From: a bacterium
GTDB lineage: Bacteria > CSSED10-310 > JAJRTK01
Direction: 5' to 3'
DNA length: 7,464 bases
NCBI GenBank assembly: GCA_024278345.1
Contig: JAJRTK010000278.1
Span: forward strand, 1-7,464
The notes beneath the pieces were generated by a model that worked only from the letters and a program-made list of their open reading frames with translations, did not search any database and was not told the DNA's origin. Shown piece after piece: positions 435-7,464 of the stretch; the first letter of the stretch is position 1, and every line of letters starts with the position of its first letter. The position numbers and the translations under genes are program-made.

Positions 435-545
435 GAGAGAGAACCTGCCGGACAATCAGCAGGTCCAAAGCAGGATCCATCGTTTCTGAGCTTCCAGATT
501 GCACCTTCTTGTATTCTTGGGAAGTTTGCTCTCCCGGCGCACTCT
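435..545. other. Short intergenic stretch with no recognised feature
   Basis: Nothing can be assigned between the LamG-like fragment and the miniature element. A minus-strand frame starting with ATG at 558 (MTEAQSAPGEQ...) runs across it to about 397. Its start lies in the element's terminal repeat and it resembles no family I know. The last five bases, ACTCT (541-545), are the left target duplication of element C. Confidence 0.5.
541..545. repeat. Target-site duplication, left copy (ACTCT)
   Basis: ACTCT directly precedes the left terminal repeat of element C and is repeated at 737-741 directly after the right one. Five bases alone could match by chance (about 1 in 1000), but they abut both ends exactly. 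Confidence 0.75.
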
Positions 546-736
546 GGGCCTCGGTCATCGGTGGTGGGCGGAGGCGGCCTCCGGACCTCCGCTGGGAGCG
601 CTGCTCCCGGGGAACCCGTTGCAATGAAAAGTAACGAGTTCCCCACCCACATTTTTGTGCGCTGCGCGCTTTTATCGGGTGGCCGGGTCCGCGCGACAGC
701 GAGAGCTGCCGAAGGCACCACCGATGACCACGCCCC
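546..736 (+). mobile_element. 191-bp miniature transposable element (MITE-like), complete, copy C
   Basis: The ends form a 21-bp imperfect terminal inverted repeat (546-566 against 716-736, 18 of 21 matching, with an uninterrupted 14-bp core GGTCATCGGTGGTG). The element is flanked exactly by the direct 5-bp repeat ACTCT (541-545 and 737-741), as expected of a target duplication. Inside are the segments shared with copy A (577-608 and 645-686), two hairpins (594-608 and 609-644) and a T-run motif with a broken T-tract. No transposase is encoded, so movement would need an enzyme supplied elsewhere. A 5-bp duplication and ends beginning GGG(G) recall Tn3-type miniature elements, but the terminal repeats are shorter than the usual 38 bp of that family, so the parent family is open. 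The element lies about 140 bases upstream of murF. Confidence 0.8.
609..644 (+). other. Hairpin 2 of element C (different sequence from copy A)
   Basis: GGGGAAC (609-615) pairs with GTTCCCC (638-644), and inside it CGTT (617-620) pairs with AACG (633-636), leaving a 12-base loop and one C/A mismatch. It occupies the same place as the 42-61 hairpin of copy A, between nearly identical flanks, although its sequence is unrelated. Confidence 0.7.
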
Positions 737-741
737 ACTCT
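737..741. repeat. Target-site duplication, right copy (ACTCT)
   Basis: Partner of 541-545; abuts the right terminal inverted repeat of element C with no gap. Confidence 0.75.
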
Positions 742-2976: not shown

Positions 2977-3122
2977 CCCGAGGTCGCGCCGTCGGAAGGC
3001 CCGGCAGCCGATTCGCGAAAAGAATCTCCGAGTTCGCCTTGAGTTCATCGCCATTTGACCAATAGCGGGGCTCTGTGTTACGAAGAACGCGTCTGGATCC
3101 CTGGGTCTGGGTTGGAGGTTCG
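2977..3122 (+). promoter_or_regulatory. Leader region of the cyclase-ATPase-TPR gene
   Basis: The region runs from the predicted intron end to the cyclase start. It includes a 22-base segment (2998-3019) repeated at the 3' end of the gene (6978-6999), a small inverted repeat GATTC-GCGAAAA-GAATC (3010-3026), and GGAGG at 3114-3118, four bases before the ATG at 3123. A GTG at 3075 would extend the protein by 16 residues but has no comparable binding site. TTGAGT and TTGACC occur near 3041-3060 but no convincing promoter pair is seen. Confidence 0.4.
2998..3019 (+). repeat. 22-base direct repeat flanking the cyclase gene, left copy
   Basis: Matches 6978-6999 in the same orientation at 20 of 22 bases (differences at 3004 and 3015). 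The shared core is CAGCCGATTC. See the right copy. Confidence 0.6.
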
Positions 3123-6100
3123 ATGAAACCGTCAGAAATGCGTGTGCAACCCACCTTGCTCACTCCACCAGGGGGTGCCGCGGGGTGGATTCGCCCTTTT
3201 CTGCCGCCTCATTTGCTCCGGCGGCTGGAGAGGAAAGGGCGGCGGCCACCCTTTGTAGAGCGATTCTGGGCGGCGCTGCTCTTTTCCGACATCAGCGGCT
3301 TTACCGCCTTGACCGAAAAGCTCAAGAGACTGGGGCGAGCGGGCGCCGAGGAGATAGCCGTCGTGGTGAACCACTGCTTCGCACCGGCCATCGACGCCAT
3401 CGAACGAGAAGGCGGCAGCATCGTCACCTTCGGGGGCGACGCGATCTTCTCGGTATTCGAGGGCGAGGCATCGGTTTGTCGCGCGCAAAGAGCGGCCGGG
3501 GGGATCCGGGACTGGTTTGCGGAGCAGGGCCAGATCGAGACCAGCCAGGGTCCCGTCCATGTAGGCATCTCTCAAGGAATCCACGTTGCCAGGGTAGTGG
3601 GCGCCCACCTGGGGAGTGACCAGCAAAGGCACTACCTGCTGGCCGGCCCGGGCATCGCTGCCCTGTTGCGCCAGGAGTCGGCGGCCGGGCCTGGCGAGGT
3701 TCACCTTTCCAGGGCGGCGAAAAAGTTCTCCAGCGCCTGGGAACAGGGGGCAGATCGAGAGAGTGCAGCTCCAGGAAGCGATGCTCCCAGGCGAGGTACT
3801 CCGCTGGAAAGGCCGGAGGTGGCAGCTCGTTGGCGGGTCTACCTTCCCTCCTACATCTCATCGCTCCACGAGGAATACGAGGGCGCCTACCGGCGAGTGG
3901 CGGTCCTTTTTTTGGAGACGAAAGGCTGGGCCCTCGGCCGCCTTCAGAGCTTCTATCTTGAACTCAGCCGCCAACTTCAGGCCCACGAAGGCGTCCTTTG
4001 GAAGACGGACGTCTCGCCCAGCGGAGTGAAATGGCTCTGCATCTTCGGCATCCCCACGGCCCATGAGAGGGATACGGAGAGGGCGGCCCGGGCGGCGCTC
4101 TCCCTGGCGCCGCCCAAGGGACTCGCATGGCGAGGCGGACTCCACGAAGGCGTCGTGGCGAACGTGACCATCGGAAGCTCTTCCCGGCGAGTGCTGGACG
4201 TCATGGGCGATGTCGTCAACACGGCGGCTCGGGTCCTGGGCCAGGCGGAGTGGGGAACGCTCCTGGCGACGGAGGAAACCCTCGGCAAGCTTCGAGGGAT
4301 CGAGACGACGAGCCTTGGCGAGCGGCATGTCAAGGGAAAGGCGACCCCCCTGACTCTCCACCGCCTGATGAGTGCGGGCGGTTTCGAGTCCCGCCGGATC
4401 CGGGTGAGCTTTCCCCTCATAGGACGGGAACGGGAGATGGCTCTCCTCGGCGAAGCGCTGAGGGAAGGCCTCGAAGGCCGAGGAAGCGCCCTTGGCATCG
4501 CGGGGGCGGCGGGGCTCGGGAAGAGCCGCCTCAAGTGGGAGGCCTCCCGCATGGCACGGGAGATGGGATACGAGTTCCACGAGGGGTGCTCCATCCCCTT
4601 CGGAGGCTCTGGCTACTGGGCGGTGCGCCAGCTTTTGGGGCAGCTGCTCGGTTTGGGCGACATCGCATCGGGAAGGAAGAGGGAGGTCGTTCTCCGGCGG
4701 GTTCGGGAAGAGGCGGAGCGGTTGGGGCTAGCCGCCACGGATCGCCATCACCTGGCGGAGATCCTGGGCTTCCGTTACGAGGGCTCGCCGCTGCAGTATC
4801 TGGATGGTAAGGCGATCCGTCTCAACAACATGTTGGGGTTTCGGAACCACGTGAGAGCCTTGGGGCGCGGGAAACCTCACCTGCTGGTGCTGGAGGATCT
4901 TCACTGGGCGGACGAGGCGACGCGGGAAGCGGCGGCATCCGTGGTGAAGGGGATTTCAGAAACCGGAGTGGTGCTGCTCCTTCTCTATCGCCCGGAATAT
5001 AAGCCGCCTCCCAGCGTGCGGGAGGTTACTTTATCGGAGCTGCCGCCGGCTTCGGTCCGGGAGATGCTCGCCTCGCTGCTGGGAGGGGTGACGCAAGAGC
5101 TCGCTGAGCAGGTGGAGGAGCGGTCCGGAGGGAATCCCTTCTACGTGGAAGAGCTGGCGCGTCACCTGCTGGAAACGGGGATCGTGGCGCGGACGGAGAA
5201 GGGGTATCGGGTAACGAGGCGGATGAAGGCGGAGGATTTTCCTGGAAGCCTGGAGTCGCTGATCACGGGTCGCTTGGACCGCTTGAGCAAGAAAGCTCGG
5301 CGGATCGTGGAGCTGGGTTCGGTCATCGGTCGGAGCTTCCTTGCGGAGCTTCTTCCCTGGCTCCAGGAGGAGGCGGAGGCGTGGCAAAATGCCTTGGTAG
5401 AACTCGAGTCGAAGGAACTGGTTTTCGAGAACGCCCCTGAGCCGTATCGGGAGTACATCTTCAAGCACGCCCTGACGAGGGAGGTGGCCTACTCGGGGAT
5501 TCTGCTCTCGCGGCGTAGGAAGCTGCACCGGGCGGTGGCGGAAGCGCTGGATGAGAAGGCCGCGGGGGCCGGTGAAGAAAGTTTTCTGGCGATGCGCGGC
5601 CTGCACTGGGACAAAGCGGGGGAAGCGGCCAGGGCGAAGCCCTGTTACCTGGCAGGTGCTCGAAAGGCCGCGGAGCGGTACACCCACGAGGAGGCGGAGC
5701 GCCTCTACCGGGCCTATTTGGCGTTGGTGAAGGAGCCCACGCCCGAGAGCATCGCGGCGAGGAACGAGCTGGGTGAGAAAGTCCTCCAGATTACAGGCCG
5801 CAATACCGCAGCCTTGGCGGAGCACGAGAAGGCGGAGTCGGAAACGCGAACGTTGGGCGCTCGGGCACTCCTGGCCGAGACTCTGGGAAGGCAAGCTGTG
5901 GCCTGCGGCGTTCTAGGACGGACGATGGAAGCGGAAACTCTCCACAAACAGGCCCTGGCCATCGCCCGGGAAGTGGGGGACCGGCCCGGCGAGGGCATCC
6001 ACCTCGGCAACCTCGCCCGCCTGCACTACGAGCAGGGTCGGTTGGAGGCGGCAGCCGAACTTTACCAACAAGCGCTGGCCATCGCCAGGGGAGTGGGGGA

Positions 6101-7025
6101 CCGGCGCAGCGAGGGCCGCCATCTCGGCAACCTCGCTATCCTATATCACGAGCAGGGTCGTTTTGAGGGGGCAGCGGAACTTTACAAACAAGCGCTGCTC
6201 ATCGTCCGAGAAGTGGGGGACCAGCGCAACGAGGGCCGCCACCTCGGCAACCTTGCTATCCTGCACTACGAGCGGGGTCGGTTCGAGGCGGCAACCGAAC
6301 TTTACCAACAAGCCCTGGTCATCGTCCGAGAAGTGGGGGACCGGCGCATTGAAGGCACGACCTTCGGCAACCTTGCTATCCTATACCACGAGCAGGGTCG
6401 GTTCGAGGCGGCAGCCGAACTTTACCAACAAGCCCTGGCCATCGCCCGGGAAGTGGGGGATCGGCGCAGCGAGGGCGCCACCCTCGCCAACCTTGCCACC
6501 CTGCACAACGTGCAGGGGCGAGTAAAAGAGGCGGTGGACCTTTACGAACAAGCGCTGGCCATCGCCCGGGAACTGGGGGACCGGCGCTTTGAGGGCATCC
6601 GCCTCGGCGACCTCGCCAACCTGTACAATCTGCGGGGCCGGACAGAAGAGGCGGAAGCGCTCGCGGCACGGGGAGAAACTCTCCTCTCCCAGGTCGGCGC
6701 CAAACTAGAACTTGCGAGGCTTCTCTGCACTTGGGGCCACATCGCCCTGAGCGGCGGCCACACTGCCCAGGCTCTCCTCAGTCGAACCCGCTCCCTCGCC
6801 GAGGAGCTGGCCATCGGGCCAAACAGCCCTCTCAGAAAGAAACTTGCCATGCTTCAGAGGGTCCAATCCGCTTTTCAAAGGGGAGAGCCGCTCCTCTGCG
6901 GTCACTCGCCCGAAGACCTCACCGAAGGCCAGCTCCGCTGGCTTCGCCGCCACCGGCCCGAGATCGCGGCGGCGGCTGGCCCGACAGCCGATTCACGAAC
7001 CGAACTGGCTCTGCCTCGGGTGTAG
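3123..7025 (+). CDS. Class III adenylyl cyclase (two cyclase domains) fused to STAND/AAA ATPase and TPR repeats
   Basis: This is a predicted cytosolic signalling enzyme of 1300 residues with no signal peptide or membrane segment, arranged like soluble adenylyl cyclase. Cyclase domain 1 (about 48-200) has LFSDISGFTALTEKL and GGSIVTFGGDAIFSVF, placing metal aspartates at Asp56 and Asp106. Cyclase domain 2 (about 255-415) lacks the metal residues (VLFLETKG) but has Lys294, Asp359 and GDVVNTAAR with Asn366 and Arg370, the expected adenine-selecting and transition-state residues, so one complete site across the pair is inferred. The ATPase (about 430-640) has PLIGRERE, Walker A GAAGLGKS (461-468) and Walker B LLVLEDLHWAD (587-597). 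GGNPFYVEEL (669-678) and KHALTREVAY (781-790) are typical of this ATPase group. Six 40-residue TPR units (935-1174) are followed by a tail ending LRWLRRHRPEI. The ATG at 3123 was chosen for GGAGG four bases upstream. The final 15 or so codons probably overlap transposase-derived DNA. cAMP as product is inferred, not proven. Confidence 0.93.
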   Translation: MKPSEMRVQPTLLTPPGGAAGWIRPFLPPHLLRRLERKGRRPPFVERFWAALLFSDISGFTALTEKLKRLGRAGAEEIAVVVNHCFAPAIDAIEREGGSIVTFGGDAIFSVFEGEASVCRAQRAAGGIRDWFAEQGQIETSQGPVHVGISQGIHVARVVGAHLGSDQQRHYLLAGPGIAALLRQESAAGPGEVHLSRAAKKFSSAWEQGADRESAAPGSDAPRRGTPLERPEVAARWRVYLPSYISSLHEEYEGAYRRVAVLFLETKGWALGRLQSFYLELSRQLQAHEGVLWKTDVSPSGVKWLCIFGIPTAHERDTERAARAALSLAPPKGLAWRGGLHEGVVANVTIGSSSRRVLDVMGDVVNTAARVLGQAEWGTLLATEETLGKLRGIETTSLGERHVKGKATPLTLHRLMSAGGFESRRIRVSFPLIGREREMALLGEALREGLEGRGSALGIAGAAGLGKSRLKWEASRMAREMGYEFHEGCSIPFGGSGYWAVRQLLGQLLGLGDIASGRKREVVLRRVREEAERLGLAATDRHHLAEILGFRYEGSPLQYLDGKAIRLNNMLGFRNHVRALGRGKPHLLVLEDLHWADEATREAAASVVKGISETGVVLLLLYRPEYKPPPSVREVTLSELPPASVREMLASLLGGVTQELAEQVEERSGGNPFYVEELARHLLETGIVARTEKGYRVTRRMKAEDFPGSLESLITGRLDRLSKKARRIVELGSVIGRSFLAELLPWLQEEAEAWQNALVELESKELVFENAPEPYREYIFKHALTREVAYSGILLSRRRKLHRAVAEALDEKAAGAGEESFLAMRGLHWDKAGEAARAKPCYLAGARKAAERYTHEEAERLYRAYLALVKEPTPESIAARNELGEKVLQITGRNTAALAEHEKAESETRTLGARALLAETLGRQAVACGVLGRTMEAETLHKQALAIAREVGDRPGEGIHLGNLARLHYEQGRLEAAAELYQQALAIARGVGDRRSEGRHLGNLAILYHEQGRFEGAAELYKQALLIVREVGDQRNEGRHLGNLAILHYERGRFEAATELYQQALVIVREVGDRRIEGTTFGNLAILYHEQGRFEAAAELYQQALAIAREVGDRRSEGATLANLATLHNVQGRVKEAVDLYEQALAIARELGDRRFEGIRLGDLANLYNLRGRTEEAEALAARGETLLSQVGAKLELARLLCTWGHIALSGGHTAQALLSRTRSLAEELAIGPNSPLRKKLAMLQRVQSAFQRGEPLLCGHSPEDLTEGQLRWLRRHRPEIAAAAGPTADSRTELALPRV
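5925..6644 (+). repeat. Six tandem 120-bp repeats encoding TPR units
   Basis: The period is exactly 120 bp (40 codons), with six units starting at 5925, 6045, 6165, 6285, 6405 and 6525. Each encodes a variant of EAAELYQQALAIAREVGDRR followed by SEG-x-x-LGNLAILYHEQGRF. The four middle units are very alike even at silent positions, suggesting recent duplication or gene conversion; the first and last are more diverged. Units of this type form helical pairs that bind proteins or peptides, so the array is likely a sensing or oligomerising surface that regulates the ATPase and cyclase. Copy number could vary between strains by slippage or recombination. Confidence 0.9.
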
Positions 7026-7305: not shown

Positions 7306-7339
7306 GTGGGGACCTATCAGATCCGGTTGACAAGTTTAC

Positions 7340-7396
7340 GGGCCTCGGTCATGGTACCTGCCACCCAAAAAAAGCGCGCCGCGCACAAAGATGTGG
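7340..7396 (-). repeat. Miniature repeat element, copy B, interrupted by a group II intron
   Basis: Reverse-complement match to 64-120 of copy A, 54 of 57 bases identical. It ends at 7340 in the shared terminal sequence ATGACCGAGGCCC (minus strand), next to the transposase relic. The match stops exactly at 7396, where the predicted 3' end of a group II intron begins (7397). The hairpin half of the element should lie on the far side of the intron, outside the window. It keeps the GC stem and a run of seven T on the minus strand. Confidence 0.85.
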
Positions 7397-7464
7397 ATAG
7401 GGGTAGGGAAAGCGCCTTGGTTTGCGCCTCCCCTCCCTCCGAACCGTACGTGCGGTTCTCCCGC
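7397..7464 (-). mobile_element. Group II intron, 3' end (domains V and VI), continuing beyond the window
   Basis: On the minus strand, 7464-7441 reads GCGGGAGAACCGCACG then TACGGTTC, the second half of a canonical domain V hairpin. Domain VI follows: GGGAG-GCGC and GCGC-TTTCCC pair around an 8-base loop with one bulged T. Outer GGG/CCC pairing leaves the A of CTACCCC (7404-7406 region) bulged as the branch point, seven bases before the predicted end ...CCCCTAT at 7397. Unlike the 2852-2976 remnant, this domain V is canonical as far as it is visible. The intron-encoded reverse transcriptase, if present, would lie upstream of domain V on the minus strand, beyond the right edge of the window. 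Confidence 0.85.

Follow-up and report, generated by a model that had tools for sequence, protein, structure and literature searches.

The window takes in contig C203 (7,464 nucleotides) completely; the source genome is an assembly of 6.06 Mb in 550 contigs that is 88% complete and comes from a thinly sampled phylum. A short element without a plausible gene is located at positions 547–734, in the intergenic region upstream of a Mur ligase gene. The two ends of the window carry parts of related copies. The right part of one copy, with an 'a'-type end (GGTCATGGTACCGGCCAC), is cut by the contig end (positions 1–119). The end of a further 'a'-type copy (7341–7396) breaks off at a group II intron, the 3′ end of which (7397–7464) lies at the contig end. 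An initial reading made from sequence alone (the sequence-only reading) had noted related copies at 1–120 and 7340–7396, and these are real. A third type of repeat, starting with GGGACCTATCAGATCCGGTTGACAAG, is found beside or between copies of the element, at window positions 7311–7340 and at loci L002, L014 and L019. Positions 3075–7025 encode a large adenylate/guanylate cyclase–AAA ATPase–TPR protein, with six 120-nt DNA repeats coding for its TPR part. There is also a weak match to a group II intron domain V (21.5 bits, E 0.31) at 2899–2944, where no obvious gene is present.

The sequence-only reading described the element as a complete miniature transposable element, with inverted repeats matching at 18 of 21 positions (546–566 and 716–736) and exactly bracketed by ACTCT. 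The inverted repeats are located as claimed, and over 545–566 and 716–737 the arms are 86% complementary, with 149 nt between them. When the window is resampled 60 times with a first-order Markov model, the mean number of 18/21 inverted pairs at a spacing of 100–400 nt is 0.03, and none of the 60 contains an inverted pair with an adjacent 5-bp direct repeat, which is present in the real window. The two ACTCT motifs are also exactly in place, at 541–545 and 737–741. The miniature element without a gene stands, but the boundaries defined by the family (GG.../...CC) move to 547–734; the element is 188–191 bp long. With the duplication length taken from the family, these boundaries give GCACTCTG (539–546) on the left and CCACTCTT (735–742) on the right, which match at 6 of 8 positions. 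ACTCT is therefore the core of a worn 8-bp target duplication, and because the duplication is worn, the window copy is an old insertion.

The window copy is made up of a series of modules. The left terminal inverted repeat (547–566, plus strand; GGCCTCGGTCATCGGTGGTG) is a 'c'-type end, and this arm is truncated by about 90 nt as compared to other c-type copies. It is followed by the hairpin module GGCGGAGGCGGCCTCCGGACCTCCGC (567–592), common to many copies, and the hairpin module TGGGAGCGCTGCTCCC (593–608). The next hairpin module, GGGGAACCCGTTGCAATGAAAAGTAACGAGTTCCCC (609–644), stands where most copies have the CCAGGGAGC..GCTCCCTGG hairpin, and is found also at L002, L012 and L022. The conserved module ACCCACATTTTTGTGCGCTGCGCGCTTTTATCG (645–677, plus strand) contains a terminator-like stem with a T run at 657–673. 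The right 'c' arm (678–729, minus strand) is the reverse complement of GGTCATCGGTGGTGCCTTCGGCAGCTCTCGCTGTCGC..GGACCCGGCCACC, and the right terminal inverted repeat (716–734) reads GGCGTGGTCATCGGTGGTG on the minus strand. The hairpin-rich interior was also noted in the sequence-only reading, and each strand of the element folds far more stably than its shuffled versions (z −7.3 for one, −6.4 for the other).

As a query, the element matches the source genome 47 times; 40 relatives together give only two matches, both marginal. A pattern search of the source genome recovers 243 ends of two types, and a second pattern, for the 'c' ends that the window copy carries, recovers 73 (with up to 3 mismatches); the reversed-pattern control gives 0 in both cases. 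The two end patterns hardly overlap, so the roughly 300 ends correspond to about 150 copies, mostly 90–390 bp long. Among the first 100 ends listed, 41 are less than 300 bases from a contig start. Many copies are thus at contig ends, and the family therefore breaks the assembly, the approximately 150 near-palindromic copies being a main cause of breaks in it.

The target duplication was assessed by comparing the left and right flanks of 41 two-ended copies in the source genome at lengths of 2–12 bp, with re-paired flanks as the background. Flank identity is prominent at 8 bp (0.445 versus 0.246, z 7.8) and 9 bp (0.423 versus 0.244, z 7.5). In comparison, it is at chance level at 5 bp (z 0.5), and the 5-bp target duplication proposed in the sequence-only reading is not borne out. 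A search for further copies that share both ends and have duplications, as that reading had suggested, finds perfect duplications in 14 of the 41, eight of 8 bp and six of 9 bp, while 25 are without a clear duplication. The copy at L086 splits another repeat and duplicates GGGCAACG, in the arrangement ...CAACAAAGGGCAACG (element) GGGCAACGGGATCCC.... The uninterrupted repeat is present at six other places in the genome, joined as ...CAACAAAGGGCAACGGGATCCC... with GGCAACG only once (up to 98% identity over 56 bp). This analogue of an empty site therefore demonstrates insertion with an 8-bp duplication. The family inserts with a target duplication of 8 or 9 bp, and positions 547–734 of the window are very probably one member of a family of non-autonomous DNA transposons (MITE) of this type. 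Apart from its unproved parent, the family has everything that defines a MITE. It is apparently undescribed, in agreement with the suspicion in the sequence-only reading of a repeated, undescribed family; the kind of element is already known, and the nearest described ones were compared by description.

Sixteen source-genome copies flanked by duplications give the terminal consensus GGcctcGGTCATcGttncgGCCacC. Conservation extends over about 22 bp at the end, with an invariant core of GG....G.TCAT.G. Four types of arm are found behind this core, a (GGTCATGGTACCGGCCAC), b (GGTCATCGTTTCGGCCAC), c (GGTCATCGGTGGTGCCTTCGGCAGC...) and d (GGTCATCGGTGGTCGGCG...), and eight of these 16 copies have unlike arm types at their two ends. 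The inner hairpins vary as well, the window copy having GGGGAACCCGTTGC..GAGTTCCCC where most copies have CCAGGGAGC..GCTCCCTGG. Moreover, hairpin modules of the MITE reappear in a second repeat family that has other ends, like TATCCACGCAAGGCGGGACA; examples of this second family are located at L022, L068 (1–250) and L073 (about 1950–2050).

The same ends and duplication are present, with different interiors, in other phyla. The terminal motif GGNNNYGRTCATCGTTYCGGCC is associated with 8–9 bp duplications on Thiodictyon plasmids and in Blastocatellia and Deltaproteobacteria metagenome-assembled genomes (MAGs). The two plasmids of Thiodictyon syntrophicum (785 kb read) carry 49 ends at two mismatches, against 0 for the reversed pattern, with the consensus GGCCTtGATCATcgtTCCGGCCacc. 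On these plasmids, 31 copies are two-ended, and the maximum of flank identity is at 8 bp (z 8.1), against a z of 1.0 at 5 bp; nine have perfect 8-bp and three have perfect 9-bp duplications. These copies are 104–209 bp long, and their interiors are unlike those of the source genome. In a pattern scan of the genome collection, chance matches dominate among the matches listed, and some are real. The latter include a two-ended copy with the duplication ATTTTTAG in a Blastocatellia MAG and several two-ended copies, one with the duplication AAAAAATT, in a Deltaproteobacteria MAG (G042). At one mismatch, 13 ends are found in a Lamprocystis MAG and 17 in a Syntrophobacteraceae MAG (G045), with 0 for the reversed-pattern control. 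Exact end matches are present in just 3 of 395 genomes of the phylum of the latter MAG, and the distribution in this phylum is therefore patchy. Viral contigs and phages gave single chance matches within other DNA; a match on an Acetobacter plasmid is inside a gene, and two on rhizobial plasmids are in unannotated stretches. The Syntrophobacteraceae MAG also contains a solitary MITE-type end (L263, 512–600) about 70 bp upstream of a lexA-like gene, for which it might be a source of promoter or operator DNA. A terminal motif that is shared across phyla and has a defined duplication provides a handle for tracing the transposase that mobilises it.

The sequence-only reading had suggested a Tn3-type parent, which would make the element a Tn3-type MITE (TIME) with a 5-bp target duplication. 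The exact ACTCT flanks of the window copy and the GGG at the start of its ends agree with this assignment. The Tn3 terminal repeat, however, is about 38 bp, and the conserved end of the MITE, with its short invariant core, is unlike it. In addition, flank identity at 5 bp is at chance both in the source genome and on the Thiodictyon plasmids, with 8 and 9 bp being prominent. As the family duplication is 8–9 bp and not 5 bp, the Tn3 assignment fails, and it is now extremely improbable. Instead of a transposon, the element could be a palindromic repeat of the REP/ERIC/BOX kind, retained because it serves, for example, as a transcription terminator or a small RNA. Its strong hairpins, its terminator-like T runs and the intergenic position of the window copy upstream of the Mur ligase gene are what such a repeat might show. 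The precise duplications, the empty-site analogue, the insertion in other repeats and the ends shared across phyla are, on the other hand, marks of transposition, and this explanation is highly unlikely for the family, even though some copies may have acquired a function later.

Neither the source genome (550 contigs, 88% complete) nor the two Thiodictyon plasmids nor the plasmid and viral records yielded an autonomous element with the ends of the MITE, the full-length transposon envisaged in the sequence-only reading. Paired ends 0.6–6 kb apart with a duplication are absent from the Thiodictyon stretches and the other loci, except for one unrelated chance match. The parent may be hidden in collapsed or short contigs of the source genome. 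Relics of IS1595-type and ISKra4-type transposases are present in this genome (L289, L293, L374, L379 and L384), with ISKra4 ends of GGGTGCGGCTCTTT. The IS1595 family, with an 8-bp duplication and ends starting with GGC, could supply the mobilising transposase, and IS1595-type transposases (PF12762) are found in four MITE-rich MAGs (G000, G042, G043 and G045). However, the IS1595 elements in G045 and in relatives of G043 end in GGCTCATACGG, GGCATTATGTAG, GGCTCTTCCTG and others, none of which is the MITE end GGNNNYGRTCATCG. Moreover, duplications of 9 bp are as common as those of 8 bp in the source genome, and the copy-rich Thiodictyon plasmids have no IS1595 transposase. An IS1595 parent is thus unlikely. 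A possible MITE end near an IS1595 fragment of G043 (L291, 4 mismatches) was not confirmed.

The leading guess is a Mutator-like parent, because prokaryotic Mutator-like (p-MULT) transposases produce direct repeats of 8 or 9 bp, and their inverted repeats, of 18–39 bp, have a conserved terminal cytosine (PMC3942029). The MITE likewise has an 8–9 bp duplication and a terminal C (GG.../...CC), and in repeat length and terminal cytosine it resembles the elements of this superfamily (IS256, ISH6, ISLre2/TnGBS and the ISKra4 group; PMC3942029). From this likeness, there is about an even chance that the mobilising transposase is of the prokaryotic Mutator-like superfamily and acts in trans. A search for p-MULT elements with MITE ends, covering IS256 and ISKra4, found none. 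The IS256 transposase (PF00872) has no match in the source genome. ISKra4 (NF033572) was rejected as the parent, as its relics in the source genome and its intact Thiodictyon copies end in GGGTGCGGC, unlike the MITE; of its two copies on the Thiodictyon plasmid pTs485, one is flanked by a duplication of 9 bp and the other by one of 8 bp.

In the mechanism proposed here, a transposase encoded elsewhere would bind the terminal core and move any DNA with two such ends. Interiors and arms could then be swapped and still be flanked by duplications, since the transposase would need just the two ends. The swaps, which would extend even to the arms of a single copy, would arise by recombination. Hybrid copies may have been mobile in that form or may have been assembled only once inserted. 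It is conceivable, though on balance doubtful, that a single lineage of MITE ends extends across distant phyla by way of an undescribed or unrecognised transposase, with arms and hairpins routinely passing from one subfamily to another, and to and from another repeat family, which would leave the short core as the only defining part of the element. Hybrid copies are informative about the way in which elements without genes diversify.

The group II intron 3′ end that cuts the MITE copy at the right end of the window matches RF00029 with only 33.3 bits, where the cut-off for the family is 40. Five more places (L013, L066, L084, L139 and L155) have this intron end directly against the same internal module, the site at L084 being in the second repeat family. 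At L013, the intron 3′ end is located at 1430–1501, and a fragment of an RVT_1 reverse transcriptase is just upstream. Class C group II introns habitually insert behind terminator-like hairpins, and the intron sites in the MITE copies appear to fit this habit. The inner hairpins of the MITE are landing sites for group II introns, and the spread of one mobile element thereby multiplies the targets of a second one. This role as an intron target, together with the cross-phylum ends and the hybrid copies, lifts the family above the ordinary.

None of the papers in the text collection searched contains any of four spelled-out versions of the MITE end. Among known small elements, the Correia element has a duplication of TA. 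Compared by description and not by end sequence, the Correia element, ERIC and Chunjie are like the window MITE in being small, gene-less and hairpin-forming, with tens to hundreds of copies (PMC10969869). The nearest described element, again by description and not by end sequence, is QMITE2 of Coxiella burnetii (PMC5896051). It is also about 190 bp long with terminal inverted repeats, and its very stable fold (about −113 kcal/mol) has an energy similar to that of the window MITE. The direct repeats of QMITE2 are variable, at 7–11 nt, and it has about 50 copies (PMC5896051), as compared to about 150 for the window MITE. Both are insertion targets of another mobile element, which is IS1111 for QMITE2 (PMC5896051) and group II introns for the window MITE.
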